This document shows positions 18,972-46,913 of a DNA stretch of 64,000 nucleotides, one piece after another. The notes under the pieces are model-generated. The model made no database searches. It saw only the letters and a list, made by a program, of their open reading frames with translations, and was not told the DNA's origin. How positions within the stretch are numbered: position 1 is the stretch's first letter; the number at the start of each line of letters is the position of its first letter. Position numbers and translations under genes: made by a program. Origin of the DNA: Membranipora membranacea (Eukaryota > Bryozoa > Gymnolaemata > Cheilostomatida > Membraniporidae). Location of the stretch: the NCBI GenBank assembly GCA_914767715.1, contig OU612068.1:22074001-22138000 (forward strand), given 5' to 3'.

Positions 18972-19340
18972 TCATTGGTATTTTTTAGATATTCTGTTGT
19001 ATCTTTCTTTTCTTGCAGTTGTTTTCTGAGGGTTAACATATTTGTTGATCTCAAAACTTAGCCTTTGCAGTTTACGACTGAATTGGCTCTTGAAGTACTG
19101 AAATTCATCGGCCACATTAAATAAAAAAAAGAACTATAAGTGTTGCTACATTCAATGATTCAATACAAACAATATAAAATGGTTAATAAATCAAGATCTG
19201 AAGATTTTCAGTCTGAATACATAACCTGTGGCATTATTACTCACCCTTTCTTGAACAGTCGGTTCTTCGAAGATAAATTTCTTTGCAGGTTTGCTGTCTT
19301 TGTTTGTTTTTAACAGTCTGCTGAAAAGGTTGAGACCCAT
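18972..19340 (-). CDS. Array gene family, copy 2: small basic protein, frame intact but acceptor site altered
   Basis: Exon 1 is 19340-19245 (32 codons, MGLNLFSRLLKTNKDSKPAK..., ending ...EEPTVQER) with a good GTGAGT donor. Exon 2 is 19115-18972 (47 codons plus TGA: VADEFQYFKSQFSRKLQRLS..., ending ...RISKKYQ), with no stop or frameshift. The expected acceptor CAG is replaced by AAT: the minus strand reads TTTATTTAAT before GTGGCC, where copies 4 and 5 read TTATTTCAG. The nearest upstream AG (ATAG) would add 24 bases in frame. Both Cys of the FQCFQRQCS core are lost (Y and F here). This is either a young pseudogene or a paralogue with a shifted splice site. The TATA box at 19401-19408 is intact. 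I do not recognise the protein family. Confidence 0.7.
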
Positions 19341-19400
19341 ATTGATATGTTACAGTATCTGTGTCAGCTGATTGAATGGTGCTGTTACAGCCCCTAGTCG

Positions 19401-19436
19401 TATTTATAGTCTGACAGAAAATTTCATACCCTATAA
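19401..19436 (-). promoter_or_regulatory. Core promoter of copy 2 (TATA box and proximal conserved element)
   Basis: TATAAATA at 19408-19401 (minus strand) lies 61 bp upstream of the ATG. Just upstream are CTGTCAG and GGTATGAAATTTT, the degraded form of the GGTGTGAAAG..CTGTCAG element shared by the other copies. Confidence 0.6.
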
Positions 19437-21369
19437 TGTTGCACATGACTAACACAAATCACGCATCTAGCATGGCATTATCTGTGGGTTTTCAGGGAAT
19501 GCAGAATTGCTACATGATGTCAAAATTTTATGGATTCCTACTAACAAAATTGATCACACTTATTCAGCTCATGGCTTACAGCTCTGAACTCTGAAAGCTA
19601 ATCAAGGCTTCTTTAAAGTCATCATCCCCATGTTAAACACAAGTTACGCAACTTTCTTGAGTCTAGAGTCTATATATGCTGGTATATAGTCTGTCTGCAT
19701 TAGGTAATTTTTGTGTAGTTTTGTGTCCTGTGTTACATTTGAAAAATATATTTGGAGTCTGAATTTAGAAAGCCCACTGGTCAATATAGTCAATGACATG
19801 ATCACAGATTTCTGGCATATAGTCTGGTGTCAGCCTCAAATATTTCACCTCAATTTCCAAAGTTGGATGAATAGAATGATAAACTGTTGTAACACCTTAT
19901 TTTATCAGATCATAATGATAATAAAGAAATTTTTGCTGTTGGGAGTCCTCAAGGCTGACAATATGCAATTACCTTTACTAGCTGTCATCTTAAATATCAT
20001 AACGATTTCAAGATTCCGGTACATCAGCACGTTCATAAATTGTTGTGTGTTATAGAGAGCTAACTTATTTAACATTTTTACAGTTCTGTAGATCAGAACA
20101 TACATGACCATACCTGCCAATTGATTAAACATTAAATTATGAAGATGATTTGAAATATCCATTGGAAACTGACCGCTTGCCATCCTTGGCTCGTATTGTC
20201 CCAAAAAATAGTGCTGTCATTGAAACAATGTCCTTTGAGCATGGTCATGGGCATGGTTGACTCACTCCCCCGTTTTGGTTTTAATTATTTATGGAAACCC
20301 TATTTCTAATATTTCCATGATATGTGTAACACGCTGTTTGGAAATAATAATACTCAATCGGTGTGTAAGGGATTAAACCGCAGCAATAAATATGTAAAAT
20401 ATTGTGATCTAGTAACTATGACCCCTCGCTTTTTACCCACTGTGCCTCAATTTAGACTAAGGTAGAACGACACAGCTATAAATTGCAAACATGGATCTCT
20501 GTGGTTGTAGAACCTGGACATGCAAAATTTTCGGCTTACTCAGCAGCTTGACTCATGTTTTGGCTTGTAACATGATTCATTACTACATTTTCATCTTTCA
20601 AAAATAACTTCAATAAGCTTCTAAAAGTTGGAACTCATTTCTAGGTTAAGAATATGTTAAGGATTTACTACTTCATATTTTCATCTCTTTTACCAAGGAA
20701 TCATGATATGGAATACATTCTAACTAATACGATTCATGTAACAATAAGTGAACTGAATACAAAATCCACAAACTTTATGTCAATGTCAGCCCAATATCAT
20801 TTACTTAAAACAACCATGAAATTAAAATATCTTGACTCGTTTTATTGTGTGGTATAGTGTGAAAAATATAAAGAGTACAGATATTGCATTTAATGTGTGC
20901 GAAGATCCGTCCATTTGAGATAAGGATCTGGCTATACATACCCTAAATGCCATTGGATTCGGATAAAAAGTACGATACGATTGCACAAAAATGCAAGCTT
21001 TTTCTCGATAAGCGACCTTTTTAGAGGGATAATTATTAGTTGTCTTCTTATTGTCAAAGTAAAGACAATCCTTAAACTTTCTTATAATTTTTCCATGATT
21101 GACAACCTGTCATATTCCTATTGGCTGGATGGTGAAAGCTTTCACAGTTCCAGTCTGTTGCATCCAGCTTGCTAATGCACTGATCATTCTGAATTTGGGT
21201 CACAGCCTGTGAACACCCCCCTCCTCCCTTTCACTTTCACTTCCTTAAACAGCTGATGAATATAGCATATCCTGAATGAAAGCTGAAATTGGAATTTTTC
21301 TGTTGTACAATTGTTACCCATTGTTTTATACATACTTTATACTGAGCCTGGCCGAGGTTATTGACTCTT

Positions 21370-21670
21370 CTCTGTAGGTCAGGTGACCTTCAGGCTCTAG
21401 TAGGCTCTGCTCGGGTAGCAGGACCCATCCAATCTTTGGACTGTGTAGGTCAAGTATCCTTTATGCTCATGTTAACCCTGATCAGGTATGAGGACCCAAC
21501 TATTCCGTGTGACTTGGTAGGTCATGTGACCTTCATGCTCTGGTATGCTCTGGTATGCTCTGCTCTGATATTAAAACCATTCTTTCCCATGCAGCTATGT
21601 AAGCTAGGTGACCTTTAAGCTCTGGTATGCTCTGGTATGCTCTGGTATGCTCTGGTATGCTCCGGTAAGA
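21370..21670. repeat. Minisatellite, ~72-80 bp period, with nested 10-bp repeat
   Basis: The core AGGTCAGGTGACCT (21376-21389) recurs as AGGTCAAGTATCCT (21447), AGGTCATGTGACCT (21519) and AAGCTAGGTGACCT (21600), each followed by TCAGGCTC/TTATGCTC/TCATGCTC/TTAAGCTC. At 21621-21660 there are four perfect copies of tctggtatgc, with two more near 21539-21558. Open frames on both strands here are by-products. Confidence 0.8.
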
Positions 21671-23646
21671 GGAGCTCTTGTATGGTCTGCGCTGGTGCTG
21701 GTCAGAGACCTGTTAACGCTGGTACGGGTCACTGACCCAAGACCAATTGTGCCTAGGGCAGTCGACTTCTGAAATATTGAACATTGATATGTGACTTCTC
21801 TGTATAAGTTTATTATATCATACAGTGTTGGCTTTTGCCAGTTGCACAAGTCCATTCTAAAGCTGTATATATACTATATGGTATTAAAGTTATATTGCCA
21901 AAACACTCAAAAGCGAAGTGATGACATTACGCAAAATAGATGATGTATCATCTTATGTATTAAAGATATAGAGTTTTGAATAGCATTGTACGTTGTTAAA
22001 GATAATGTATAACTGGATTGCATACATGCAGGCTGGCACACACTGTGCTTCACTGCAAATGTTTCCTATTTGATATTGAGAGGAAAATCATTCACTTGTC
22101 TTGTGATAATGGGGAAAACAATGCTCAAGGTCTTTAATATTACACAAGATCCTGCCTGTAGTTTATTGATTTCTCTATCTTAGTCAGGCATGGTGTTTTC
22201 CGAGAATGGTATTGCAAACTAGAGCTATATAGTAGTATGTCTGACCACACATACAGCGTTGGCCCAGCAAATATATGCTGTCAACGTAGGATTGGCCAAC
22301 GGTGATAGGTTAAGTCTATAAACATGTGGTTTTATCATCTAACAATAGAGTTTGAATCACTGGTTGCACTGAAAGCAGTCTTACAGCATGTTTGTGATAT
22401 CACTTCTACTTTGCGCGACAGCCTCCAGCTATCTTAATCTATGTATTTTTTTGTCAATTAAATGAGGTCTGATCTGGACTGATCATCATGTTTTTGATAT
22501 TTCAAGACCACGGTGGTATCTGAGTCCCAGCATTCCTTGGAATTGTTATAATGCATGTGCGCTACAGCATACCATCTGCGATATTTTTCCTCACTTGCAC
22601 TAAGTTTAATAGGCCATCTCTTGCAACAAAATATAGTCATGACCTGAAAAAAACAATAAGTATCACCTGTATAATAAGTAGCCTGCATCATAACCGCCAA
22701 TCGATTTTTGGCTTTGCAGGTCCTCAAAATCACAATCTGATCTTTGACACTTACACATTAGAGCTGTACCAGGATAACTCCAAGTAACACCATGGTTTCA
22801 AAACTACATACATAGGACTCTGTTTTCAATGCTTTACAGCTAGCTGTAATAAATCCTCACAGAGGAAACTCGGGAACCTTAAATGCAAAATGTCAGAAAT
22901 ACATGTGAGATGTCCAGAAATTAGAAGAAAAAAGTCTTTTTAATTGTCCAGCTCAACCCCTTTGCACATTGATAAGCTTAAACAGTAAATCTCTCAACCC
23001 TTATTGCTTTGTCTGGTGCTTATGAATCTTCTTGTCGTAAAATATTTGTTCTATATAAGTGTCTGTCTTGTCTAGTAATTCATATATTTCTCATAACATA
23101 TCTTGCCATCAGCTGAACTGAATGAAAACTAGCTGATCTGTATTACATTATGTGTTTTTGACTATTGTGCACAGCAAACTTTTGCATCATGTGATGAGAA
23201 AAATGTGCCAGAGGTCAACACCAAATCAGTTACGGCTTGATAATGATACTAATTTCAACTTAGTTTTAGAGTCTTTACTATTGGAACACATCTGCCTAAT
23301 AGAAAGACTGTAAGAAAACTATTTGGCAAATCGATAGTGAAGATTAGGTTTCGTTCTCAATCTATGGCCACACAGTTTCCGTAAAATAGAGCTTCCTGAT
23401 AGTCTCCAGTTTTCAATTATTTATTATGAGTCAGATAACAAGTTTTGAAGGTAATAAAGATGTCAGCACCATTTGTGTAAAAATAAATAGAAGTGAAGCA
23501 TTGCACAACTCATTGTGAAGGGAATAACATAATTGTAAACCTCTTAACTGCAAAAAAAGCTGATGATGACGCTAACAAATGTGTATAATGCCAGCTGCTT
23601 GAATAGTGTGAAATTCAATGTGTTAATTTTTTCCTGGTAGAGCAGA

Positions 23647-23983
23647 TGACTGGTATTTTTGAGATATTATGTTGGAGCTTTCTTTCCTCGAAGCAGGTTT
23701 TCAGGCTCAAAACATAGCCTTTGTAGTTTTTGACTGCATTGCCTCTGAGCATTGAAATTCATTGACCACCTGAAATAACCAAAGACATATTATTATGATA
23801 ATTGTTAAATTTTTTCTTTTAATATATTCACAAAAAAGATTGATAAATCCATCGCGCAGTTACAATCATGTTCATAGTTCAAATGAATAAAAATTTTAGA
23901 ATGCATTAACGCACCTTTTTCTTGAATATTGGGTCCTTTGGGAATATATTTTCATGCAGGTTTTTGAGAATATTGACACCAAT
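23647..23983 (-). pseudogene. Array gene family, copy 3: pseudogene
   Basis: Exon 1 remnant (23983-23915): the start is ATT instead of ATG, the middle is deleted, and the donor reads GTGCGT. Exon 2 remnant (23769-23647): the CAG acceptor and the first six codons (VVNEFQ) are kept, but a 2-bp loss in the TGCTTCCAG region shifts the frame. About 18 bp of the basic region are also deleted and the terminal stop is lost. The TATA region at about 24044-24056 is weakened to TATTATAATT. The proximal GATGTGAAAGATAATGTCAG element persists. Confidence 0.85.
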
Positions 23984-24917
23984 TTTTATGAGTTACAGCT
24001 CTCGCTCCAGCTGAGATAACGGCGACTTGATGGCACCTGATTGTAATTATAATACTCTGACATTATCTTTCACATCATATACTTCTGTATATCACTAAGA
24101 CAAATCCCTTATGTTACTTTAGGTTGAGTGTGGGTTTTTCACGAAATGCAAAGCATTCCATTCAACGATTTCAAGGTTTTCACAAGGCAACATGTTCACC
24201 AAAAATGATTTCGATTTCGAGTTACGTAAGCTTGAGTTTAGTGTTGATTTTGCATACCTGAATTACCTGGATATGACTCAAACCCGTCCAAATAGACCAA
24301 TGTACGCATCAGGTATAGTCATGTATCTCAATTCAAATATGTGATTCATGATAAGTATCATTTTGTAGCAAAACATATTAAATTACATAAATTACCAAAT
24401 AACACACTGTGAGGTGTTCATGAATTATGGTATAACATAATCCCTATAAATTGAAACTTGATCAATGAGCAGCTGTCTTTGGTGATGGCTGTTTAAGGGG
24501 TAATGCGCCTGCTGTACAATAGGCAGATATGCTGAACTATTATTAATATGTTCTACACACCATCACCACACACCACAAAGTATGATGTTGCACCCTGGTT
24601 TTGTAACCCCACATAATTTGAGAGACATGCTTATCAAACCATTATCGTCATCTTTCCACAGGTAAAGGTGGGAGAGATTCTATTTGCAGTTTCTAGGCTA
24701 TTTATAGAGTTAGCGTCCTTAATACTAAAAGGAAAGTTTTACCAAATGCCATGTGTCATATTTTGGTTGAAGTAAGCCTTCTGCTATGTGAGCAAAGGTG
24801 ACCATGAAGGCTAAACACACAACTTGCATGTTTTGACTGTCAATTTGTAGCCTTTTCGAAATGCTTTACCAAAAAAGTGTGGTAATGTACATTTCCATCA
24901 TTAAAAATAGAATTGTG

Positions 24918-25010
24918 CCCATGATATTAAACCCATCCTTGATGCTAAAAATAGAACTCACTATAATTGTGTATTTCTCCCAAGAGAAAGGATGGGCTTT
25001 ATATTATTGG
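24918..25010. mobile_element. Palindromic MITE, short copy
   Basis: The left arm CCCATGATATTAAACCCATC and the right arm, reverse-complemented CCAATAATATAAAGCCCATC, form inverted termini around a core with GAACTCACTATAATTGTGTA. It sits at the same place in its array unit as the fuller copy at 31307-31483 (shared flank GGTAATGTACA..TCCATCAT), so it was inserted before the unit duplicated. Confidence 0.7.
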
Positions 25011-28000
25011 AAAGAGTATATGAATGTCTTGGGTCGTTGTCACAGAATGAAGATATCGGTCAGAAAACTGAATGCTCTCCTATCTCATGAGTGAGGCACA
25101 ACACCCCTATTTGACCAATCATGGGCCTGTTGAACCACTGCGCGAAGAGAGATAAATTACAAATTTGCTCAAAAACAAGCTGGAAAAGCCGAGCTATGGC
25201 ATTGGTAAGTTGTAAAATACTATAGAAGGATTCTCAAATGTGTGAAGAAGTGAAACTCGAAAAAAAATGATATAAAATCTAAAGCATAATGCATTTATAG
25301 CCTTCGATGGTGTCCATGTTGGCAATGGCAAATGTGCCGTAAATATTGGGGAAATTTCGATGTTTAACCTGAGCCCTAAATCATCATCACAATTGCCATG
25401 GGAATAGAGATTGGAATACGTTATTGTACTATTAAGGGGCTGGAGTTGCAACAAGTGGGGAACTTATATAAGCCGTAGGTGGTAGTTAAGAGTTTGGAAA
25501 TGAATCATTGAAAATTCCCATACAGAAAAAGGTGCAAAGTAACCGCCTACCCAACCTGACACAGTCCAGGGTCTACCCTCTCCAAGCTCCAGGGTTGCCA
25601 ATAATAGATATGTTATTCTACCTGATTCCAAATTGGGATAAAATGACTAAAAGAGGCTTGGTCATCTAATCAGTGATGGATATTTACATGTTGACTTCAA
25701 TCTTTCTTCACACCAATCACATTATGAGCATGTTACATATTTCATAGTCCTATTGGGAATAGGATTACTATCAATTATTACAAGCCAATCATGGAATGAG
25801 TCAACTGTGACCATGCTAAAATGTTGTATCAAAAACAGAGATCCTTTATGGGACAGTATAACATTGGCATTAGTTCATGGAGGAGATTTGAAATAGTTAG
25901 AACAACTTATCTTTAAATCAGTTGATAGGAATGATAGTAAATGTTCTGGTCTCAGAGTTGTAGCTATTATGGAATAATAAGCCTTCAACAATGCACAATA
26001 GTTGTTAAACTGAAGCATAGAAATGTATACATCTGTTGTCAATTTTTAGGACAACTAACTAATATCTAAGGAAAATGCTTTTCAATGTATTGGAAGTGGT
26101 GGGAAGGATGTTGTATCATTAAATCAAAATGATAAAATTGCAATTTAAGAAACATCTGCATCGTTAATTTGCCACACACTGAAGCCAAAATTTTTTTTGG
26201 GTTTCTCAATCCACATGATCAAAGAAGTCTAAACCCAAAATATAGCGACATTACGCCATGACGTATTGTCGTAGCTCGACACTGAATTTCAGCAACATGT
26301 CAAACCTATTGTCACTATAGTCTATAGAAAAGACATTGCAAGTTCTTAGAGCAAAAATTCAGTTAATACATGAGAACTACCGTGATATCATGCAGCCATA
26401 ACAACAATAATGTTCAATATTTGATTTGACTTGAGAAAAACGGCGTTCAAATTCGCATACTGCTAGCTAAACCATCAGTGTTGACAATGCTATAAAGAAA
26501 GTGATTACTCTTGTGCCCTCACTAACCCAGTGCTGACCAGTATTGATGAAAAAAAATGTTGTGTAATTTTACAGTTTTGAATTATCATACTCCTATAATA
26601 ATAAAAATTTCAACAGAAATGTACTTTTACCTTTCAAAACAAGAAGTACAATTATGTGTAAACCGTATCTAGACTGAATTATTCTTTCTAATAGAGGTGT
26701 CCTCCAAGGCCTTGGTGGGGGCACTAGGCATAGATTTCGAACCAAATGAGACTTTTGTGTTGGAGAAGGAGTATACCATCAATGCCTATCATGCAGTCTT
26801 CCAGAGGCAGGCTGAAAACTCAAAATTCATTCTGCCGAGCTAACTTCAAATAAAATATAGTTTGAGTGAGCAATTGCATAGGAACTACCTACAAACACAT
26901 CCTCCCGGTATATTCAAAAATATTCATTCATCATCTTTTCTCGAATTGAAAAGATTGCCTCATGGATACAAAGGAAAATCCAACCATTCATGATTTTTTG
27001 CCTACAATATTTCTGCACCAGATTTGGCCTAGTAATATAAGTCTCTGAATTCCATTCATTTTAATGCATTATTTTACAATAGTTCACAAGCTGGCTTGTT
27101 AATTCTTGTCTGTTATTATAGGACTTTCTTTCTCTAGTACTTGAATTTCGAGCCAAGGCTTGTTACTACCATTAATTATCACAAGTTAATTTTATTTGGC
27201 CTAGTTTGCGCTGCTATAGTCCTGTTTTGATATGAAGAAATGGTTGTGAGGTGTCTGAGCTAGATGCTCCCAGTTATTGATGGCTCCTATTCTTTAATAC
27301 GGGCACCAGTGGTTTGATTGCAATCACAAAATCAAGAAACTATACTAAAGATAATTGAAATCGAAATTTCTCAACGAGGAAAAGCTACAATTAGAGTGAA
27401 AAATCAAGGCAATTGGACCAGTAGTTCTCAAGTTAATATCCTAGGCCAGGCATGACCTTAATGTAACATACAACTCAATAATAGACTAGCATAGGAAGTG
27501 CTAGAGTGATCTTGAGGATTAAAATTTAGCACCTACTCCGGATGTGACCTTGCACTGTATGCTACAAACGATTTATAGAAATACCGGATGAGCAAAAAAT
27601 AGAATGCTATATCTGAACTTGATTTATGATGCTGGTTGTAAGTGATGTGTGTGAAGGTTATTCCGGTTGAGATTAGGATTTGACTATAGCTTTAGTATGT
27701 GCATTGGATTTGAAATAAAAATACATGACGGAGCTGATATGGGTATATACTGAAATTACTAATTTTACTAAATTATATCTGCAATGGCTTATCCAGTAAA
27801 TTACGAATTTCATTGGTTTTTCTATATACATTGATGAATCTAAATCCTTCGCATTTTATTAGCACCAATTTAATTAGTGTTTATAGCATTTTAATAATAA
27901 TTAAAATAAAGTAAGTTTGCAATACAAAGGATATTATTGATATCAAGCTTAGAGTAAGAAGTCTAGCATTGCTTTCTGAAAGAAAAAGTAAGTAGTCCTA

Positions 28001-28355
28001 GCCAGAATTATTTATGTTATGAAATTATTTAACAGCTCATCTCACATCGCATCACATCGCATTCCCTCCTGTCACTGATATGAAATAAAAATACAGTGGC
28101 CACTTTCATTTGTTGAATATTTCTGTATACAGGTAGATATGCAATTTATGTGTCTGCTCTTTGTTGAGTTCCTCAGACCAGATTAGCAGTAATTTTTGTC
28201 CTCTCTGCAAAGTTCTTTTTCGTTGTAGGATTAGTGTCAATTGCACCAATCGATTCAATTTCAATCATGTGTACATTGTGAGAATATACCTCCATCAAAA
28301 AGTAATGTTTCACCCTTACCACCTTACAGTTGCAGTTGCAGCTTTTTTTTGATCA

Positions 28356-28436
28356 TGTCACTATTATTATTATTATTATTATTAGCTTGTATAATGTCAT
28401 ATATATATATATACATTTAAATATATATATATGGTA
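28356..28436. repeat. Microsatellites (ATT)n and (TA)n
   Basis: About seven ATT repeats near 28366-28384 are followed by two (TA)n tracts between 28399 and 28434. The second tract marks the start of a block shared with 21873. Confidence 0.85.
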
Positions 28437-29712: not shown

Positions 29713-30067
29713 TTACTGGTATTTCTGAGCTATCCTATCATATCTTTCTTTTCTTGCGGCGGTCCTTTGAGGGTCCACATGTTTTCTGAGCTCAAAACTC
29801 AACCTTCTTAGTTTACGACTGCATTGCCTCTGGAAGCACTGAAATTCATCAGCAACCTGAAATAACAAAGACAAACATATAAGTTTTGTTCCACTTTATA
29901 TTTAAATCGTTCGAGCAGTGAATATTGTTCATAGTCATGCATTAACATTTTTGGAGGCATGTACTTACCATTTCTTGAATTGTCGGTTCTTTGAGATTAT
30001 GCTTTTCTGCAGCTTTGCTTTCTTTCCTTGCTTGAAACACTCTGTTGACAAGGAGGCTGAGACCCAT
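29713..30067 (-). CDS. Array gene family, copy 4: small basic two-exon protein, intact (80 aa)
   Basis: Exon 1 is 30067-29969 (33 codons, beginning MGLSLLVNRVFQARKESKAA and ending EPTIQEM) with donor GTAAGT. The phase-0 intron is 112 bp with acceptor TTATTTCAG. Exon 2 is 29856-29713 (47 codons plus TAA), beginning VADEFQCFQRQCSRKLRRLS and ending RKERYDRIAQKYQ. Exon 2 is strongly basic (13 Lys/Arg) with hydrophobic residues spaced as in an amphipathic helix. RRLS fits a PKA-type phosphorylation motif. There is no signal peptide or membrane segment, so a cytosolic or nuclear product is likely. The TATA box is at 30130-30137 and a possible AATAAA at 29419-29414. I do not recognise the family and infer no function. 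Conservation of frame, intron phase and core across copies supports a real gene. Confidence 0.85.
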
Positions 30068-30129
30068 GCTTATGTGTTTTAGCTTGTGTGTTGGTTGAGA
30101 GAATGATATATTGACAGCGCTGTGTCACA

Positions 30130-30185
30130 TTTATATACTGACAGAAGCCTTCACACCTGATACTGCTTTACATCACCAATCACCC
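30130..30185 (-). promoter_or_regulatory. Core promoter of copy 4
   Basis: On the minus strand TATATAAA (30137-30130) lies 63 bp from the ATG. Upstream in order are CTGTCAG, AGGTGTGAAGG (resembles a T-box half site, AGGTGTGA), and ATTGGTGATG (CCAAT-type, about 30176-30185). The same order appears in copies 3 and 6. Confidence 0.65.
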
Positions 30186-31483: not shown

Positions 31484-33293
31484 AAAGCGTATATAAATAT
31501 TTTAAGAAAAGGTAAAGTGTTCAGTTTATATGGATTTGCTCATGGAAGAACACATTCATCTGAATGAGTTGGCTCTGCATCCTAACAGTTTTCATAAAGA
31601 AATTTGCATTTTTTTATTGATTGACCATATTAATGTTCAAAACTAGAGTAGGCCCTAATATAAAAGCCAGCCATGCTAATATCTCCCTTGGCATTTTCAC
31701 ACCTGTCACTTTACTTGTCACATGTCGGGCTTCTGTACTTCTTTTTGTCTTAGTCAATAATTGCCTTATCTAGATGTTGCCAGAAGAAAACAAGCATTTG
31801 TAGTCTTCTTGAGTAAATATAAAGTCGAAAATGTTTTGGACACAAAATGAAGATTTGTTGTCAGTAAACTGAATAAGCAAATTCTGCGAAGAGTGAACTT
31901 CAAAACCTCTTCAAACTACTACCAGTGGTCAGCTTTGTTATACAGCAGTCGTACTAGAAGCTGGTTTCACAAGGGTCTGGGGTTGCAACGAGTGGGTAAC
32001 TTAATAAAGCTGTAGGTGGTGGATGAAGATGTGCAATGAATCATTGGAAATTCCTGAATAAGAGTAAGGGTGCAAAGAAAACAATAAGCAGCAAGTCCAG
32101 GGTCTACCTTCGCCAAGCTGCATCATTGCTAATTACAAATGTGTCATTCTATCGTAGTCTGAATTGGCGCATAGTGAACTAAAGAGGCTTGGTCTCGCAT
32201 CGGTGATGGATATTTATATGTTGACTTTCATATTTCATCACACCAATCACATTTTCAGCGTGAAACACCTTTCATGGAAATATTGGGAATAGGATTACCA
32301 TCAATTATTACAAACTTATCATGGAGTCTGGAGTGAGTCAACTGTGACCATGCTTAAAGGCTATCATATCAATAACAGAAATCCTTGCTTGGACACTAAA
32401 ACGTTGGAATTGCAAAAATCAGTTCCTGGAGGAGATTTCAAATAATCCAAACAAATTAAATTTAAATGAGTTGAAAGGTATGATCATAGGATGTTCTGGT
32501 CTAACAGAAGTAGTTAAAAATAATAGGCCTTCAACGATGGACAATAATTTATCAACTGATGCACAGAATGTAAAATTTTTTTGTGTGAATTTTTTTGACA
32601 ACTAACTTCTAATGACAAAATTTCCCCATGTGTTTGAATTGGGAGGATTAACATTGCAGCATAAAACTTAATGATAAACTTGCATTAGGAAAAACATGCA
32701 TTGTTGTTTGTCTACTCACTGAAGCCAAAACAAACTAAGGTTCCTTCATGGCCCTATATACATTTCCTGGTTAAATCTTGGAAATATTACAACATGAAGT
32801 TGTGGTACAAAGACATTTACTCAGAATGCACTATCATGATGGACACCTTGTATACTGTGACAAGCACCTCAATAATAGGCTAGTGTAGGAAGTTTTATCG
32901 TGATCTTGTGGATTGATATTTAGCACCTACCCCGGAAGTGAATTTGTGCTGTGTGGTACAAATTTATCACATTCCCTTTGAAATACTCGATGCGCGAATA
33001 ACAGAATGCTATATCTGAAATCAATTTATGATGTTGGCAGTGAGAGATGTGTGTGAAGGTTGGTCCGGTCGAGATAAAGATTTGACTATACATGCAATTG
33101 GATTTGAAATGAAAATACATATCTGATCGTACAATAATGGTTGTTTGTTAGCTAACATGGTAATCTAGATATATACCCAATATACAAAACATAAACTCAA
33201 CAGTATATTAAACCACCTGCTCCCAGTACAGAGACTAAATGAGCTTAGAGATAATAAAATGCAATACAAACTCAAAGTACTCGATTGTAAATA

Positions 33294-33328
<35 letters not shown>
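33294..33328. repeat. (TA)n microsatellite
   Basis: About 16 TA units without interruption. Confidence 0.9.
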
Positions 33329-33329
33329 T

Positions 33330-34490: not shown

Positions 34491-35111
34491 GAATATTTTG
34501 CACTTGTCAAAACACATGCATGTGGGTTGTCTGCATCTCACAAGGCTGAAGCTGTGATAAGTCACAGTGACATTCAGAATTGCCAGTAGTGTAATATACC
34601 ACAAAATAAGTATATATGCCATGTATATTCCACCAAGAGTGTTTATTGTCAATTATCCAGATCAACCCCTCCAAACTGTGTGTATGGTGCATATTATGAA
34701 GACTTCCCTTGTTTTACCTTTGTTCCATAAGAGTGTGTGAATTATGATTGTTTATAAATGTATTCAGTACTCAATAATAAATATAAGTTGTCATCAATGG
34801 AAAACTAAATAGAAACTTGCTGTACACAGCAAACTGTTGCATAATATTATTATGAGAAAAAAATGTGGGACAAATCAGACGTCAACCTGTTCATTGGTTG
34901 ATGATAATAATATATAGATTTGGAGTAAAAACTATTGGAACACATTTCCCAAAGACCTAGAAAATAGGATGAGAGATTGCACCTGTCATATTGGAACTAA
35001 TAGCGTAATTGTGTTAACAATGTCAATGTCAAAAACTTTTGATAATATCATGAGTATACAGATGTACTGTAAGATATGGGAAGCCTTTTACATTTTTCCT
35101 GGTGTTCCAGA

Positions 35112-35487
35112 TTACTGGTAGTCCAGATTGGTATGGTATTTCTGAGATATTCTTTCATATCTTTCTTTTCTTGCGGCGGTTCTCAGAGGGTCGACATGCT
35201 TTTTGAGCTCAAAACTCAAGCTTCTTAGTTTACGACTGCATTGCCTCTGGAAACAGTGAAATTCATCTGCCACCTGAAATAACGAAGATAATTTTATAAT
35301 TTTCTTTACATTTTATGTTTTAAAACATTTGATTGGTTAATAGTGTTCATAGTATAGTCATGAATTGAATTTTTTGGAGGCATGTACTTACCATTTCTTG
35401 TATTGTTGGCTCCTCTAGAATATACTTTTCTGCAGGTTTACTGTCTTTCCTTGTTTGAAAAAGACTGTTGACAATGTTAAGACCCAT
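35112..35487 (-). CDS. Array gene family, copy 5: small basic two-exon protein, intact with C-terminal extension (85 aa)
   Basis: Exon 1 is 35487-35392 (32 codons, MGLNIVNSLFQTRKDSKPAE..., ending ...EEPTIQEM) with donor GTAAGT. The phase-0 intron is 118 bp with acceptor TTATTTCAG. Exon 2 is 35273-35112 (53 codons plus TAA; VADEFHCFQRQCSRKLRSLS...). Compared with copy 4, an 18-bp in-frame insertion near the 3' end adds HTNLDY before the final Gln. The inserted DNA repeats the local TACCA..ATCTGGA sequence, so it arose by slippage. The RRLS motif reads RSLS. The TATA box is at 35550-35557. The product is otherwise as in copy 4, of unknown function. Confidence 0.85.
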
Positions 35488-35549
35488 GATGATATGTTAT
35501 AGCTTGTGATCCCGTTGAGTGAAGAATGTCTCAACAGTACTGTACCATT

Positions 35550-35595
35550 TTTATATACTGATTGAAACTTTCACAAGCTGGTTTCACGTGCAGTT
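35550..35595 (-). promoter_or_regulatory. Core promoter of copy 5, upstream part replaced by deletion
   Basis: TATATAAA (35557-35550) lies 63 bp from the ATG and is preceded by GTGAAAGTTTC. The sequence then runs directly into CCAGC and beyond, which in copy 4 lies about 430 bp further upstream (compare plus strand 35579 with 30598). The CCAAT-type element is therefore gone and a CACGTG E-box (35586-35591) now sits about 100 bp from the ATG. Confidence 0.6.
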
Positions 35596-37899: not shown

Positions 37900-40800
37900 A
37901 CAGTCAACTATGAACCAAAAATGTAGATATCTGATGTGACTCTTTATATAGAAGTTTGTAAATGAGGTTATTACAGTTTTTATGAATCCCAAGAAAAAAA
38001 CTTCCCTTGTCTATGTCAAATAATTAATTGAATGAAATTACTGCCAATAAATTAGTATTTAATAACTTAACAGGAAAAACTTGAAAGGAAGGTGAATGTG
38101 CTGTTGTATTTTATCAATTTGTCCATCTAGCTTCAGTTTATTAGCTTAGTTTTCTCTAAATGATTGTCATAACTACCATATCATTGTTTGTTTGTTTTTT
38201 TTGTTGCATTGGGAAAACAGCAAAAGTGACAGTGGCATAAATATATGTCATATGAAATTAAAAAGAGGACACTTTTCATAAAAAAAGTTCACAATATCAT
38301 TTATCAATTAAACTCGAAGGTAGAAGATAACACTGGCACCACTAAATACGTATCAAGATGCAATTAACCTTCACCATCACCAGTAGGCAACATTCTCGAT
38401 AATGGAAATACTATGTATAAGCTTTAGATCTGCACCACAGGGCAGTCAGTAGCCCCTCCATCCCATGGCTGCAATAAACTGAATTAAGTTCAGAAGCTAT
38501 TTTAATCTCAAAGAAAATTTCTAATTCTTGTTATTGAACGCAATAATATTGTTCTTGTAGATGATCTTGTAACCGGGATGACTAATGATATATTTAAATT
38601 GACACAATAAAATATAACTGCTTTGTTTATAGAAAACAATTATTTCATACATCATTTTGTTTCAAATGCATATTATTTATTTGGAGATTTTGTTACTGAA
38701 ACAAGATGATCGAAATCAATCGAAATAATTAAAATTTTCAAATTTAACATTTATTAATAACATCGAAAATTAGATGGAGTACATCATTGCACATCAAGTA
38801 TCAAAATATAAGTTTTGTGATTGTCTTCCACTTTGAGGCCTCTTCTATCAAATTGAACTGGTAGGGGGAACATCTTTACATATATATATAATCAACTTGT
38901 ATAATAACAATTTTTGATATACTGAAAGGTTGAATAACTGAGGCTCTTCATTTTATCCAGCATACCTATTTTTCCCCCCATGCAAAATAGTTCAACAGAA
39001 TCACTTTTGTTTTGGCAAGTAGAATACATAGCAAGGCAGACACACACAGCAATGGGATGCCCTTAAATATAAAATATGCTTGAGTGGCATCAAGCTTGTT
39101 TCAATATCCATTAACAGCCCTCTATTAGCTTTCTTATATAGACAAATTTGATACCTCTAATATGGTGTTAAATTTTCCAAGTCATTCCTGAAGACAGTTC
39201 TCATATGAATGTTGAACCCCCGAACAGAGGCACCAATGTATTACATTTTTTTTTATCACCCAGCATGCCAAAACAGACATAGGAAGGAGGTTCGAATTTG
39301 TATAATATTTTTTTCATATGATAACTTTTTTTCTTTCGTCCATAAATATGCTTTAAATATGTGTACATGTATAAACGCACATATTATCATGAGTGACACT
39401 TTGTGTACTGTACCACGCTTACTTATGTTAGATATGTGAAGGTTTAGTTAGTGTGATCTTGTTAATATTTAGCATCTACGTCGGAAATGACCTTGCTGCT
39501 TTTGTCTAACAGTAATACCCTATGAGCAATATTAAAATCAAATCAATGTAGTTGAATGTCATTAAGGCCGCATTCAGGATCTGCCCTCTCAACGTCTCTA
39601 CCTTGAACACACAGAATAAAATGAGCCAAGTGAGACTTCCGTTGGAATATCAAATACAATTTTTAATTAAATAATAACAGATTCAAAGGCAAAAGTATAA
39701 AAATCTTGGTTAGGTTACTTTTTCATGTTTGAAAAGCACCCATAACCCTATAACAGAATCCCGCAGGGTCATGAACCATAATAATACGGTCCATCATCAA
39801 CTTTGGGGACAATCCCCTAACTATATTTTAGAAAAAGACTTACCCATTGAATTTTTGGTCATAATATTTACCAGCTGCTAAAAATGATCACATTTCACAA
39901 AAAAACCTGTTCCTGAATATAATGAAAATAAATACAATTTTATTGGCTTACAAAGTTTAAAAGTTATAATCGCTTTTAACAATTGGCAGGATTGATTTCA
40001 AGGAAGTTCTAAAAAAGAATCACAAAATTAACTTGACACAACTAGTGAATTCTAGTGTTGAACCAGGCACTAAACTTATATCACACAATATCATGTTTTA
40101 CACACTTTTTACAGTGATTTACAATATATACTATATTCATAAACCGGTGTGAGACATGTTAGCCTTACCAAAATGGTGTTTGTGAATTTAGGATATGAGA
40201 GGAAAATTTCGATATACTGGTGAATTTTGTAAAATCAGGTAACAAGATAGTTATTCTTGTTGTAACCTAACAACGACACCTTCTGCTTATAGCCTATAAC
40301 AGCAGCCGGTAAAATTGACAATCATATGCGATTACAAATCAATGCAATGCAACTACAAGTTTTCCACTGATCATGTGATGAATAGCATCTGTATGTTAAA
40401 ACTACATTCCAACAGGGGAATAAATTGGCCAATGCTTGGGAGCTCTAAAAGATTATCATCAACCATTAAGAATTGTATTCATTCATAAGGCGGGGAACTT
40501 AAACCTGGAAGAGTTCAATCACGGAAGCTTCAAATGACTGCAAGTGTTTTTATGGCTGCAAAAGAGGCATATCAACTTGAAAGTTGAATTTGCTCAAAAA
40601 TGATAATTAGCTAAAGTATCATAATGAATCCGAAATTTGTTTATTGCTAGACTTCAAAAGTGTCAATATAAAATGTTTTAATGCACAAAAAATAAAACTG
40701 TTTTGAATTGTGAGAAGGTTCAGGTTACCTAACACTCACTGGAAAACCTTAAGTTGAATTTTCACGACTAATCATAGTCTCCTTTATTGCTCCTTCTCAA

Positions 40801-41080
40801 TCTCCATCTCGCTTAAGCATAGTGTCTTTGAAAATATAAATGACGACAAAGGTTTTGCCAGGATGATCTTACATCCTGCCTGGGTATTAGGGGTACATTG
40901 TGGCATGTTTTCCTCATATTAATCATATTACAGTTTCTATGACTCAGGACAGTATGCAATACTTTACAACTAATTAAAATATATGATGAAGATGTATGAA
41001 GGTTGATTTGCGCCTCAAAATCTAAGATATTACTCTGAAAAGTAATGTCACCGCCCATCTTGTTTGTGGTGTGAGCAAAA
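37900..41080. other. No gene recognised
   Basis: AT-rich DNA. A block at about 39465 (TTAGCATCTACGTCGGAAATGACC) resembles array blocks at 27530 and 32920, so part is diverged unit DNA. A short TA tract lies near 38880. No exon of the gene family was found between 35.5 and 43.1 kb. Confidence 0.4.
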
Positions 41081-41084
41081 CATC

Positions 41085-41751
41085 ACAATAGCAACCTTTT
41101 TTAAAAAAGGCAGCATTTTACGAAATCTCAACTCAAACAGTCCTAACATGTCTTTCAGGAATGACATTGATATCGGAGTAACAGCTTTGGCACTTCCTAT
41201 ATTGTATGAACTTATGAACAGATTTATGCGCAAAAACTACAGTTTGTTGCAAAAAACATTAGCTTAACAAAATACAAGTTTATCTAACCTTTTGAAGTTT
41301 GTGGCATCATGTTAACACATTAATTGCTTTGTTTGTGTTCATACCAGTATCTCTGTGTTTCACAATGGGCAGGGTGGATGCGACAGGAGAGTTTTTTTTC
41401 GAATGACAATGACATGATCCAAATTTTCCTTTTGTTTGCAAAATGAAAGTTTTGCATGAGATAAACTTTTACTTCAATGTTGTGGAAAATTGTAGTTGTA
41501 GTCATTAGTAGTCAGTTGTAGTAATTGTAGTCTGTTCTGGGTTTATTTTAACATAAAAATTTAGCTACATGCATATCACAGATTGACCACTATTTTTAAA
41601 TATATTGTACCTACAGAGCGCTATGCGTGGGTGGATAACCATTATAACAAAACGGCAACCTAATGACTTTTACAGGCATAAAGCAACAATTCGGCTGGAA
41701 AATATTACCCATTAAGCTTCACTGTCAAAAGCCACAGGTTGCCCATGGCTG
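41085..41751. mobile_element. Non-autonomous hAT-like element 2 (degraded)
   Basis: The left end ATAGCAACCTTTTTTAAAAAAGGC..ATTTTACG and the right end AAAAGCCACAGGTTGCCCATGGCTG correspond in the same orientation to element 1 at 2705-3686. Interior landmarks are also shared (CTCAACTCAAAC.., AACTACAGT.TGTTGC, TTTTGAAGTTTGTGGCATCA). It is shorter and more diverged. I could not confirm a target duplication. Confidence 0.6.
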
Positions 41752-42976
41752 CACTAAATTATTATCAACGGATAATCATCTATGTCACCACTTCCTACAC
41801 AATGAAAATAGATAAAACACAATTGAACAATGATATATCCTGCAACATAGTTTGGATTGATATCCACAAAAACCAAGCCTTATATTAGTGTGTTTCATTA
41901 ATTCATAATTAATTCAATTAATATTTGTTTCTCGTGACAATGGAACAAATAACACACTCTGAATTTGTTAAAACGTAGAAATCTTGCAGAGAGTTGTGCT
42001 GTCCTTAGAAGCATTTAATAATTCTGTCATCACATATCCCTTCAGCCTTTCGTAATATAAAACTTGATCCTTGAAGAGCATAACAATATCAATTTCATTT
42101 TTTATAACATATGAAATTATACTCTCCTGCGAATTTCATATCCCCTCATAAAACATTATAATATGAACATTAATTCCTAGCAGAACTATTTTAGTAATAA
42201 GGAGTGACCATTTGGATCTGTAACGGGGTGTTTCGTTTTGAAAACTGTGAATAATCTTGTCATTTCAAACTGAGGCAAAAATTAAAAAGAAAGCAAATGA
42301 TAGATCGACTGAGAGTAATTTAATTATGTTAGTGAAAGTGGAACAAATTGATCTCACATTCACCATAAAGCAATGGGTATTTTCAACGAAATCTTACCTG
42401 TAAATGACTCTCCCTCCAACTGCCAGTCAGTCAAAGCCAACACATTGGTCAGTCAAAATCTCTCTTTGTCATGCATCTACGTTTTTAATGTTCCCTCAGG
42501 ATGGTCGAGAATGAGATAGATATTTACCATTAAAACTGTTCCATTTCGAAAAGTCTGAGTCATGTCGAAACAAGAAATTGTCTCCTGAAATTTCCATCCA
42601 GAGATGAACATGACAGCCACAGGTCTTGTTCCCAAATAATTCCCTACTTGAAAAATTTGGGATGTATGTCTCCAAACACAAAAATGAGCAGGAGTGTGGA
42701 GTAAGGTAATAGTGCATATTGGTCCATTCCAATGATAAGGCAAACATATTCGACACTAATTGAATATCCCAATTTTCTTTTCATTCATTTTAAGGAAAGA
42801 AAAGCTCAATAAAAAGCACTCAGAGCTGAGACGCTCCATCGATATCAAAAGAAAATATTTATACTTGAAGTATAGCTAGAGCCATCAAAATTACAGCTGG
42901 AATATTGTGAGGTTTGAAAATATATATCATTTTGTCCTGTCACCTTAGGTGACTGATATTTTAGAGAAGTTTGATT

Positions 42977-43003
42977 GTTTGAAGTTTGAAGTTTGAAGTT
43001 TGT
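42977..43003. repeat. Heptamer repeat (GTTTGAA)n
   Basis: Three to four consecutive GTTTGAA units. Confidence 0.85.
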
Positions 43004-43107
43004 TTATTGCCTAAATTCTAATATCCATCCTGTGATAGGTTGATAGCATCGAATGTACAGCACATACATGGAAAAATAATAATAAAAGGAGTCTGAGCTG
43101 CATTAGT

Positions 43108-43470
43108 TTAAAAATCGCATCTGTCTCTTCTTGTGGAGGTTCTTTGAGGGTCAATGTGTTTGTTGAGCTAAAAACTTAACCTTTTTAGTTTGCGACTGCA
43201 TTGCCTCTGGAAGCTCTGTACTTCCTGGAACAAAATGAATACATAATTTGAAGAGTGATAAAATGAAGTTTTGCACTGTATGATCATTGTATTTTACACA
43301 TGGATAATCAATGATAATTGGAACGAGGCATGAAATGGCAATTGTAATGATCAATAATATGTTTGGGGTCTCACCATTTCTTGGACGGATGGTTCTTCAG
43401 CGATGTATTTTTCTGCAGGTTTGATGTCCTTCCTAGTTTGAAACAGTCTGTTGACAAATTTGAATCCCAT
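43108..43470 (-). pseudogene. Array gene family, copy 6: nonsense mutation in exon 2
   Basis: Exon 1 is 43470-43375, intact (32 codons, MGFKFVNRLFQTRKDIKPAE..., ending ...EEPSVQEM) with donor GTGAGA. Exon 2 starts at 43224 after CCAG with a shortened beginning (EVQSFQRQCSRKLKRLSF), then TAG (43170-43168) replaces the conserved Glu of LSFEL. Beyond it the old frame continues (LNKHIDPQRTSTRRDRCDF) to a TAA at 43108, so only one base change ends the frame early. If spliced, a 50-residue product without the C-terminal basic region would result. The TATA box is weakened to TATGAATA at about 43533-43540, while the GGTGTGAAAG..CTGTCAG element and ATTGG remain. Confidence 0.8.
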
Positions 43471-43774
43471 TACAATGTTGTATTGTAGCTTGCATGTCTC
43501 TTGACTGAATGATGTCTTGCTAGAACCCCATTGTATTCATACTGACAGTAACTTTCACACCCTATTCTGATGTATATTACTAACACCAATCCAATTATCA
43601 TGAAGTTGTCTGTAGCTGTTCAACGGAATGCACAGAATTCCAACACAAGATGCCCACGTGTTCACAAGACACCTAATATCCAGCATCCCAATCACATGTA
43701 TTGTTCAGGCTTATCCTGATCACATGGATTACAGTAGTATGTATTCCATAATAGCATACTATAATACAGTATTA

Positions 43775-44007
43775 GGAGAGGTATACACCCGAGGGTGCTG
43801 GGAACTGGAACAATCAACAATGGAAGCTCTCCCAGTGGAACTCGAACCCACAACTCCTAATCGCCTGGCAGTGAATAGCAAGCGCCATCTCACCATCCCC
43901 AAAAAAAGAATGGCTCGATGGCGCGAATTAGATAACCCGCTATTCACTACTCGGAGTTGTGTTCACTCATCCCACAGCACATTCCAATCCACCATTGCCA
44001 CCCTATG
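43775..44007 (-). mobile_element. SINE family B, copy with internal deletion
   Basis: On the minus strand the element runs from a GTGCTGTGGGATGAG flank and GTAGTGAATAGCGGG through GATGGTGAGATGGCGC to GGGTTCGAGTTCC and CCCAGCACCCTCGGGTG. About 25 bp of the head, between the A-box region and TTCACTGCCAGGCG, are missing compared with the next copy. The overlapping open frames are SINE by-products. Confidence 0.75.
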
Positions 44008-44149
44008 AAACACAGCATTAGGTTTATTGGCCTTACATGGCCCATTGCTGGGACCCCTTGTAGTAGGTGTAGCTGTCTTTCCATGCTTTTCAGCATGTCT
44101 TTCCATGCTGTCACATATCTTTCCATGAGTCAGTCAGTAGACAAGTACA

Positions 44150-44404
44150 CAGGCGAGGTATACACCCGAGGGTGCTGGGGGCTGGAACAATCAACAATGA
44201 AAGCTCCCCAAGTGGGACTCGAACCAACAACTCCTGCGGCACTAATCGCCTGGCAGTTAATAGCAAGCGCGCTAACCGATCGCGCCATCTCACCATCCCA
44301 AAAAAAAAGAATGGGTCGATGGCGCTAATTTGATAGCCCGCTATTCACTACTCGGATTTGTGTTCTCTCATCCCACAGCACATTCTAATCCACCATTGCT
44401 ATCC
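44150..44404 (-). mobile_element. SINE family B, fuller copy
   Basis: The minus strand shows GGATGGTGAGATGGCGCGAT, CGGTTAGCGCGC and the B box GGTTCGAGTCCC (44225-44214), followed by TTGTTCCAGCCCCCAGCACC and CCGAGGGTGTATACC-type tail complement. The same flanks as the 43775 copy are present on both sides, so the two form a direct duplication of about 375 bp period. A partial third repeat (CTCGAACCCACAACTCCTGC) follows at 44406. Confidence 0.75.
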
Positions 44405-44964
44405 ACTCGAACCCACAACTCCTGCGGCACTACTCACCATTATTAAATTAATGGTCAGTGTTGGCGGCAAATTAAGTAAACTCCAGCTTAGTGTGTTTTG
44501 ACATACCTATATGCCAGACTAAACTATATGTGTGAAGCAGAGCTGGGTACAGTCTTGTATATCAATCGTTAAATTTTACGCAGGTAATGTATGAATCATT
44601 AGTTGATTATTTTGGATTTGCATTGACACTAATTGCTAAGGCTTGTGGTGTGGGTGGTTGCATAAGGAGTTCTGTGTGGAATTACATCGACTGCTACATT
44701 TGACTATTTCTACACATACAATTCATATTCATTGGTCTCGTAATGCTATATTAGAGCGAAGCTGTCAAATTAAAATGAAATCATCATCATATCGTCATCA
44801 TCGCGATGCAGGACCCAGCTGATTCACCTCCTCCAAGGTTTATAAATGAACAACTACCGATACATTTGATCCATTTTTTTGTGTTAGACCCTCATAGACT
44901 GTATAAACGCATACAATTTTGCGCAACAATTCTGTGATATTATATCTTTTTGAGAAACTTTTAG

Positions 44965-45270
44965 GTGAGAAAATTGGCAGAAGTAACTCACAGAAGTAAG
45001 TCACAGAAATGAGTCACAAAAAGAACATTTGTTTTTCCACATTATTAGAGCAGTTGCTTATGCTGTGTTTTGCGCTTTTGGCTTTAGCACATTCTTTAGG
45101 TTAAATTTGTGAGACACTTTTGACCTACTCATATTATTTTCAAAGGATAGTTGGTCGTGATACGAATAAAAAAGTCTCACAAATTGGTTGACAATTCCTC
45201 TCTGGTTAGCCAATGGAATGCCTCCTCACAAATTTTATTGGCTGGAAAACCCTATTTCTACACAACCAAA
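44965..45270. repeat. Dispersed repeat, first copy
   Basis: Contains GGCAGAAGTAACTCACAGAAG and TTGGTTGACAATTCCTCTCTGG..AGCCAATGGAATG..TATTGGCTGGAAAACCCTAT. A diverged copy in the same orientation lies at 52905-53500. Confidence 0.7.
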
Positions 45271-45641
45271 CATCTCTACTTGAGTGTGCCGAAAGGTTAA
45301 AATTTTCCCAAACTGGTTTTGAAATGAATATTCTGTAAGAAAATGAAAACAAATATAAAAAACTTCTGGGTCTGTTTCTATTTTTTTATTATTCCATGAT
45401 AAAAGTGGTCAGTATTTGAGGACCATTTAATATTCAGGATCTAGAAAATGGCCCTCAAAACCAATGAGTAAGGTAATTATAAAAGCTATTAGCTATTAGC
45501 GGTTGATGAAAATGAAGCTAATAATGATGGTAAAAGCTGGAACGGGTAAAAGGTAAAAGTGACAACTGATCCCAACAAGGTCCAGGGTCTACCGAATATG
45601 ACCAAATTAATTTATTATAAAAATTTCTTATACTATTGAGG

Positions 45642-46913
45642 ATAGTTCCCAAAAATAGCCAAGCAACAAACTGCTTCAAACGAGGAAGAACAGCAAGCCT
45701 GCAGTAAAAGATATTGAAAACTGACTGTTCATGAAATGGTAAATGCATGCCGCCGACATATTTTTGCTCAACTTGAATACTTTGCTCGAAATACCATTGA
45801 TTACTATTATAGGGTTAAATCATGAAACGTGACAAAATTTAATCTTATAAATCTTATAATTGTCTTTTTCTTTTCTAGGTAGGCGATGATATTCAATGCT
45901 TCAAGAGACAATGCAGTCGCAAACTAAGAAGGCTCAGTTTTGAGCTCAACAAACACATTGACCAGGGGCGATTCTAGCACTGGCCGCCAGGGTCGTGCGA
46001 CCCCCTTCTTTTAAAAAAAAGAAAATTGAAATACATGCAAAATTGGAGAAGTTATGGCCGAAATAATACTGGCACTATTTTCTTCTGTCACAAAACACTT
46101 GTGTTTGCTTACATATTACCAAGCAGGACTGCAGTAAATAAACCTTGACTCCCTAATTCACATTGATCAATAAGATAAAGCCTGAATGATTTTTTTTCAA
46201 GGAACAGGTGAGTGAGTGATGGCTTGAGATGAGAGATGAGTGACAGACAATCACAAATAGTAGTAGTTGTGTGTTGTTATTAGTCAGCCAGGTCAGCCCA
46301 GTCATTCAAGGCCATAGAAATGTCTATGGTCCAGGCTTGCCAACCTGAAAGTTGACATTGGAGTAAGATTGGCAAATGAGCCAATTTTGATCAATGTCAA
46401 TGATGACTATGTGACTTAATTTTTTTCTGACACAGTTGGAAAAGAATATTCTTAAGTCACAAGTATTGTAAACAGATGCTGTATTAAATTGTCTTTACCT
46501 TGACTGCGATGTACTGAATCACAATCATTTATAAATATATTGTTTATAATCAATAAATTACTTGCCAGGTACATGTAGTCCTGTACAGTTTTCACAAGTT
46601 GTAAAGATATAATGTGAACTGTCTAGTATTGTAAATGAGTGAAAATTGACAAAAAACATGGCTTTTAGGGTACCAAATATGTAAAATTTTCGTGGGGGAG
46701 GTCCCCCACACCCCCTTCACCGGGAGGGTGCTATGGCGCCCCTCCCGGACCCACTCCTCCGCCTGCAAACTGGCCTTCGGCCAGTAAACGGACCCCCTTT
46801 CCCATTGGGCTAGAATCGCCCCTGTTGACCCTCAGAGGACCGCCGCAAGAAGAGAAAGATACAACATAATTTCTCAAAAATATCGGTCACCTGCTATGCT
46901 AGGAAAAAATTGA
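45642..46913 (+). pseudogene. Array gene family, copy 7: inverted, start lost, split by a transposon
   Basis: Exon 1 remnant (45642-45738): ATAGT in place of ATGGG and a 1-bp length change; it keeps CTGCTTCAAACGAGGAAGAAC, GCAAGCCTGCAG and a GAAATG end before GTAAAT. The 140-bp intron ends CTTTTCTAG. Exon 2 starts at 45879 with VGDDIQCFKRQCSRKLRRLS..., in frame through LNKHID, where the element at 45963-46824 interrupts it. After the element, the coding sequence resumes with DPQRTAARRERYN and reads past the usual stop to a TGA at 46911-46913. Without the insertion exon 2 would be open, so it was probably still coding, or recently dead, when hit. It is the only copy on the plus strand. Confidence 0.85.
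45963..46824. mobile_element. Non-autonomous hAT-like element 3 (862 bp) inside copy 7
   Basis: Both ends carry the perfect 16-bp inverted repeat CAGGGGCGATTCTAGC. The flanking target duplication is TTGAC (45958-45962 and 46825-46829), and removing one copy restores the exon. Subterminal DNA at the right end is GC-rich and contains the palindrome ACTGGCCTTCGGCCAGT; the left end has CACTGGCCGCCAGGG. CAGGGG termini suit the hAT superfamily. A 5-bp duplication is unusual for classic hAT (8 bp) but known for hAT5-type groups. No transposase frame. Confidence 0.9.

Follow-up and report, generated by a model that had tools for sequence, protein, structure and literature searches.

The genome of the bryozoan Membranipora membranacea (339,339,785 bases, 18 contigs) carries an undescribed family of small two-exon genes, arranged in four clusters and apparently provided with a common composite promoter. 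Seven of its loci lie in the 64-kb window analysed here (positions 22074001-22138000 of chromosome 4, C4). A preliminary description of this DNA, made from its letters alone, had proposed a tandem family of seven loci; the window array proves to be one part of a larger, multi-cluster family, bigger than first noted. The earlier observation is confirmed and its interpretation is partly supported. The account that we tentatively favour, although we rate it slightly below even odds, is a protein-coding multigene family with a shared promoter, a basic hairpin product, joint switch-on and an intracellular role. That the family codes for protein is drawn from 25 open models, a phase-0 intron at a single place, ratios of nonsynonymous to synonymous change (dN/dS) below 1 and the shared composite promoter.

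Organisation of the family across the genome

Searched by tblastn, the genome returned at least 46 matches to the product of copy 4 and at least 54 to a family consensus, matches being counted per exon. With copy 4 as the query, E-values were 2.6e-25 for the copy itself, 9.5e-23 for the best other copy and 2.5e-20 for copy 5, and the last two values exclude chance likeness. One stray match aside (C1, E=4.4), the matches are restricted to C4 and chromosome 6 (C6); a C4 match at E=6.8 is uncertain and was left out of the locus count. Together, tblastn and a profile scan define 38 loci, of which 25 have two open exons and 13 are broken or incomplete, in clusters at 21.93-22.21, 24.76-24.86 and 32.81-32.95 Mb of C4 and at 7.45-7.52 Mb of C6. 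The 13 comprise window copies 1, 3, 6 and 7, the C4 loci at 21.939, 21.968, 22.067, 22.208, 24.811, 24.855, 32.807 and 32.841 Mb, and the C6 locus at 7.457 Mb, a tally that bears out the array growth and repeated loss proposed earlier.

The open models encode proteins of 76-104 residues and are interrupted by introns of 112-343 nt, all in phase 0 and at one common place, with GT...AG borders in 24 of the 25. Copies 4 and 5, as predicted from the sequence, are intact two-exon genes on the minus strand. In copy 4, an exon 1 of 33 codons (29969..30067; MGLSLLV...PTIQEM, donor GTAAGT) precedes a 112-nt phase-0 intron (29857..29968, GTAAGT...TTTCAG) and an exon 2 of 47 codons plus stop (29713..29856). 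Copy 5 has an exon 1 of 32 codons with the donor GTAAGT (35392..35487), a 118-nt phase-0 intron that starts with GTAAGT and ends with TTTCAG, and an exon 2 of 53 codons plus stop with the tail HTNLDYQ (35112..35273). The short phase-0 intron and the 32-33 codons of exon 1 in the preliminary description therefore stand, and its exon 2 of about 47 codons fits copy 4, copy 5 being longer; Met-Gly, taken there as a general feature, is a trait of one subgroup, with Gly2 in only 8 of the 25 models.

An alignment of 21 members, made of 20 from this genome and the database protein P0002, with five models left out, is invariant at M1, E31, M32, R42, L48, F53, K57, R67, E69, I74 and Y78. Exceptions among the five are copy 2 and a21.930 at M32, e32.843 at L48 and e32.822 at R42. 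The tree of the family supports group E (C4, 32.8-32.95 Mb) and group F (C6) at 100/99; 11 of 24 inner branches are unresolved, and its deeper order is poorly supported. Next to the C6 cluster (L046, 1-10000) there are long open frames, among them, by eye, one resembling the reverse transcriptase of a long interspersed nuclear element and one resembling a transposase of the Mutator-like element type. Contig 18 (14,741 bp) bears mitochondrial COX1. Over 801 bases of it, all 4 AGA/AGG codons stand at serines of human COX1 and 4 of 5 AAA codons at lysines, and TGA is translated as tryptophan; the code is thus of the invertebrate type, unlike that of tunicates, echinoderms, sponges or vertebrates, and a sponge, considered early on as the source, was discarded.

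A shared composite promoter

When the upstream DNA of the 25 models is aligned on a hand-placed TATA box, a TATA-like sequence is found in all of them. The candidate promoter element paired with it is GGGTGTGAA, and a 15-nt block has the consensus ATATCGGGTGTGAAC. This block is separated from TATA by 11 nt in 18 models and by 10-12 nt in 23, the extremes being 8 and 14 nt; the ATG lies between 68 and 131 nt from TATA. GGTGTGA, which we take to be a T-box-half-site-like word, is exact in 19 of the 25 and sits there at a nearly fixed place, with near-constant spacing to TATA. T-box target promoters have a comparable AGGTGTGA-like half-site; here, instead, it stands at nearly fixed TATA spacing as a family-wide unit, and no factor was identified, none having been looked for.

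The strict pattern GGGTGTGAAN{10,13}TATATAA has seven matches in 339 Mb, six of them at family genes, against one for the reversed control; since its letters were chosen from family genes, it speaks for rarity elsewhere and not for independent discovery. The lone non-family match (C3, gap 10; L062) shows no visible family gene in the 1.5 kb translated downstream. A profile built from the 25 genes scores most of these same genes at 20-39, as its construction implies. In the window plus 120 kb of C6 it also picks up six sites outside the family, scored 14.0-17.8; random sequence yields 3.8 per Mb at the same cut. In its strict form, the putative composite promoter is nearly confined to the family. 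Within the window, copy 4 has a full promoter on the minus strand (30130..30163; GTATCAGGTGTGAAG, 11 nt, TATATAAA; profile score 32.8), and copy 5 has kept the TATA box next to a decayed upstream element (35550..35583, minus strand; GCTTGTGAA; score 16.9). A promoter remnant of copy 2 starts at 19436 (minus strand, score 20.1), and a decayed promoter of copy 6 at 43567 (minus strand) scores 16.8, in the non-family range.

Selection on the coding sequence

By the Nei-Gojobori method (NG86), all 64 within-group pairs have a dN/dS below 1 (range 0.07-0.88), and 61 have one below 0.5; the pairs are not independent, and model e32.954, which lies outside all groups, was left out. These ratios do not fit the label "fast-evolving" that the array had been given. 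Yang-Nielsen (YN00) values, obtained for 52 of the 64 pairs, are all below 1 and usually somewhat above NG86, at 0.22 for copies 4/5 and 0.87 for d24.76/d24.81. For copies 4/5, a comparison that the preliminary description had proposed, NG86 gives dN 0.094 and dS 0.479, hence a ratio of 0.20, not near 1.

A simple neutral simulation of eight chosen pairs (2000 runs) placed three of them at 0/2000 runs. One of the three, e32.863/e32.928, has 6 amino-acid changes against a neutral mean of 16.0; copies 5/2 give P=0.039. The absence of stops from copies 4/5 is uninformative, because 27.5% of neutral runs are likewise stop-free. Between these two copies identity is 79% in the intron, 81% in exon 1 and 88% in exon 2, and falls to 54% upstream and 62% downstream in flanks of 250 nt each. 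The divergence of the flanks, as first described, is therefore upheld. The intron, on the other hand, has diverged no faster than exon 1, a likeness that allows for a recent duplication or for gene conversion. Taken together, the NG86 and YN00 ratios and the simulation argue for purifying constraint that is clear across the family and modest for copies 4/5.

Predicted product

AlphaFold2, run on copy 4 with a shallow alignment of eight rows, places helices at residues 2-21, 30-60 and 62-78. The mean predicted local distance difference test score is 80.1; by tens of residues it is 87-96 where exon 2 is the source and 57-66 where exon 1 is. The product is accordingly predicted to be a small basic helical hairpin from exon 2, modelled with confidence, joined to a basic exon-1 helix of low confidence. 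Net charge is +4 to +17 in the family and +1 to +6 over residues 2-17. Around the exon junction, a 32-residue segment exceeds its shuffles in amphipathicity (P<=0.05) in 23 of 26 rows, the segment of a22.036 being misplaced. No signal peptide was seen by eye, and no predictor was run. The idea of an N-myristoylated Met-Gly protein was set aside: the modification calls for Gly2 and a small residue at position 6, and of the eight Gly2 models only a22.062 has a small residue 6.

Relatives and database searches

Scans of Pfam, NCBIfam, PHROG and PDB sequences gave no accepted match for the family, in agreement with the initial failure to assign it, and no library match passed the curated cut-off where a cut-off was shown. 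The 21 members drew weak, scattered Pfam matches, each in at most 3 of 21 (DUF5394, best E 0.0046), and the best single Pfam match, to DUF1690 (E 0.0028, one member), was not accepted. Nor was the best NCBIfam match (SecA, E 0.015, 2 members). PHROG reached E 0.0063 in one member, and phrog_25931, of unknown function, appeared in 11 of 21 (best E 0.021). Four consensus sequences searched against Pfam listed PH_met_RdRP (0.015), FerA (0.093) and two others, none accepted.

Among the PDB sequence matches, those to an oxysterol receptor (E=1.1), dynamin-1 (0.044) and a tape measure protein (0.014) were judged chance or composition, and two further searches listed nothing. The charge and hydrophobic pattern of one group E member matches the designed protein sc-apCC (PDB 8qae) at a whole-sequence E=6.7e-7, which fits a helical, coiled-coil-like chain; sc-apCC proteins are artificial and repetitive, and the best single stretch has E 0.76, so that we judge the match to reflect composition, not kinship. 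A guessed likeness to the N-terminus of ESCRT-III (CHMP2/CHMP6) was dropped, Pfam having listed no Snf7. A transposon-encoded protein was rejected as well: neither the 21 members nor 10 of the 13 other open frames in the window matched a transposase, reverse transcriptase or capsid in Pfam. A transposon match was the outcome that the preliminary description had named as speaking against its family.

Searches of 5.8 billion predicted proteins recovered five relatives, P0001-P0005. P0004 and the C6 copy at 7.522 Mb are all but identical, so that P0004 probably comes from M. membranacea or a very near species. P0001/P0002, P0003 and P0005 show 55-68% identity to the queries over the matched part, and since they are unlike any copy listed in this genome they would derive from other species; by sequence, then, the family has relatives in at least one other source. 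Exon 2 is common to P0001, P0002, P0003 and P0005, and all four have an in-frame Gln directly before it, which would fit an in-frame CAG acceptor, judged from protein sequence only. P0001 and P0002 have one exon 2 in common, which leaves three independent cases, and P0002 reads on through what looks like an intron separating a recognisable exon 1 from exon 2. Gene calls in that database are believed to suit unspliced genes, so missing relatives elsewhere in it say little. No relative was found by tblastn in viral contigs (105 pattern-matching stretches) or GTDB genomes (140 stretches). The family is undescribed in Pfam, NCBIfam, PHROGs, PDB and the literature searched, little of it bryozoan; the annotation releases of the genome were not searched.

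The array in the window and its surroundings

Seven loci are indeed present in the window, counting a fragment at 11.1 kb beyond the interval 18972-46913; the single architecture first ascribed to all of them is altered in copies 1, 2, 3, 6 and 7. Copies 1-6 lie on the minus strand and copy 7 on the plus strand. Copy 1 (11120..11224) is an exon-2 fragment with an in-frame stop. Copy 2 (18972..19340) has no AG acceptor although both exons are open: its exon 1 ends in Arg, not Met, and the acceptor reads TTTAAT. Copy 3 (23650..23769) is a degenerate exon-2 remnant, and in copy 6 an open exon 1 (43375..43470) is paired with an exon 2 interrupted by TAG (43114..43227). Copy 7 retains an exon-1 remnant without a start codon (45665..45709) and an exon 2 (45879..46883) split by an 862-bp element (45963..46824) that has 16-bp inverted ends, CAGGGGCGATTCTAGC and GCTAGAATCGCCCCTG, and is flanked by TTGAC on either side. 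The ends of this insert are of the CAGGGGCG type, and the flanking duplication seen is only 5 bp.

Repeats at 25563-27688 and 32094-33090, 5.4-6.5 kb apart and between copies 3 and 5, may be remnants of the unit whose duplication built the array. At 43774-44415 there are two repeat pairs, 377 and 401 bp apart and 91% and 88% alike, possibly a dimer of short interspersed nuclear elements; one pair has a tRNA-resembling, GGGACTCGAACC-like word, in which ARAGORN found no tRNA. A long inverted repeat at 48258-50694 (arm pairs 48258-48361/50591-50694, 48403-48528/50376-50501, 48580-48670/50217-50307 and 48713-48888/49984-50159) has 78-84% complementarity and a loop of about 1.1 kb, and could form a single long hairpin. 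Of 13 other open frames of at least 105 codons in the window, 10 were scanned in Pfam, and these held no accepted domain (best E 0.05). Rfam and tRNA scans of the window (ARAGORN, bacterial code) returned no match.

Discussion

In kind, the family recalls the lineage-restricted (orphan) tandem families of animals, with which it has in common small genes, local clusters, a mix of intact genes and pseudogenes, and no accepted Pfam or PDB relative. It differs from them in a core promoter kept across clusters on two chromosomes, the strict form of which is nearly absent elsewhere.

Four other explanations were weighed. The loci could be mostly decaying repeats, spread by recent duplication and with little present function, as 13 of the 38 are broken or partial, copies 4/5 resemble each other as closely in the intron as in exon 1, and three of eight simulated pairs fit neutral change. 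We hold this to be quite improbable: four clusters contain 25 open models, dN/dS stays below 1, the promoter elements are near-fixed in spacing, and Pfam matched no transposon domain. Host-defence peptides, in which the basic exon-1 segment is released and attacks microbes, would agree with the basic N-terminus (net +1 to +6 in residues 2-17) and with a tandem array that gains and loses copies. Yet no signal peptide was seen by eye, exon 2, which lacks the basic segment, is the better conserved exon in copies 4/5, and the dN/dS ratios indicate constraint, not rapid change, so a role of this kind is unlikely.

We give about the same small weight to small proteins that bind calmodulin or light chains, like PCP4 or neurogranin, with [FIV]Q-x3-R in helix 30-60 (IQCIQRQ...) as an incomplete IQ motif. 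The 21-row alignment shows little or no variation at Q38, R42 and C44, and the segment is amphipathic, but the second basic position and the Gly of the IQ consensus are not kept, e32.822 has Gly in place of R42, and Pfam listed no IQ match for any of the 21 members at E<=10; only [FIV]QxxxR is kept in most rows. Least probable, to the point of being hard to credit, is a miniature protein that arose from the stalk of a dynamin-family GTPase and would interfere with dynamin assembly, either as a plug or in a dominant-negative way. A profile match to the dynamin-1 chain (3zvr) at KEPSIKCVDMVVSELTSTIRKCSEKL (E=0.044) brings out a short likeness, KEPSI..(D/E)MVV(S/D)E(L/I)...C(S)..L, and hhalign against the animal's own dynamin fragments scored 27.0 (P=1.7e-4, one comparison), where 200 column shuffles reached at most 18.4. 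That comparison was, however, picked after the first match had been seen, and it covers 29 columns and needs a 2-residue gap. No other dynamin chain was listed at E<=10, and three single-member PDB searches list no dynamin. The family is without a GTPase or other dynamin domain: with E<=10 as the limit, Pfam listed neither Dynamin_M nor a GTPase domain, whether for the 21 members or for the 4 consensus sequences, and a genome search with PF01031 gave only 7 matches, on C1 and C7.

Several results also weigh against the protein-coding, jointly regulated family that we favour. The predicted template modelling score of the copy 4 model is 0.40. In amphipathicity, the exon-1 helix exceeds its shuffles (P<=0.05) in no more than 6 of 26 rows, which all belong to one subgroup, and no correctly placed row shows such an excess for the C-terminal segment. 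The strict promoter pattern occurs in only 6 of 25 models, none in the window; the copy 5 promoter, at 16.9, is no better than the best non-family site (17.8); and the reading of the site as a T-box half-site is presumptive. Three NG86 ratios stand at 0.62-0.88, and neutrality is not rejected in three of eight pairs (d24.76/d24.81, 0.752; a21.965/a22.024, 0.23; copies 4/2, 0.177). The suggestion that copies 4/5 look selected has their ratio on its side, but they depart from the neutral simulation only at P=0.024, and protein-only selection does not explain why their intron is kept as well as exon 1. Expression itself we infer from sequence, and the same holds for cell-type control, dose and docking.

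Under the favoured account, one T-box-type factor, or another reading the same site, would turn the copies on together from the TATA promoter, perhaps in a single cell type or stage, and numerous copies would yield a large dose of product. The protein would remain intracellular, where its exon-1 segment may dock to the negatively charged surface of a membrane or a nucleic acid, and its exon-2 hairpin may pair with itself or a partner. Arrays would expand by local duplication, with copies lost to stops, to loss of frame or splice sites, and to insertions. RNA-seq of M. membranacea is on record (ERR6464929; PMC10290214).

A further, doubtful proposal goes beyond this: that a bryozoan lineage evolved a new protein unit, a basic helix plus a helical hairpin, together with a private composite promoter (a T-box-like half-site about 20 bp from TATA) that was copied with each gene. 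Some two dozen copies would then make up a single dedicated regulon, the mark of a cell type or stage peculiar to bryozoans. Bryozoa are little studied genomically, and short spliced genes are easily missed by gene callers. The near-private promoter motif would offer a direct handle on the cells where some two dozen genes act, and on the factor. The family may offer a small-scale example of a new protein spreading jointly with its regulation by duplication.

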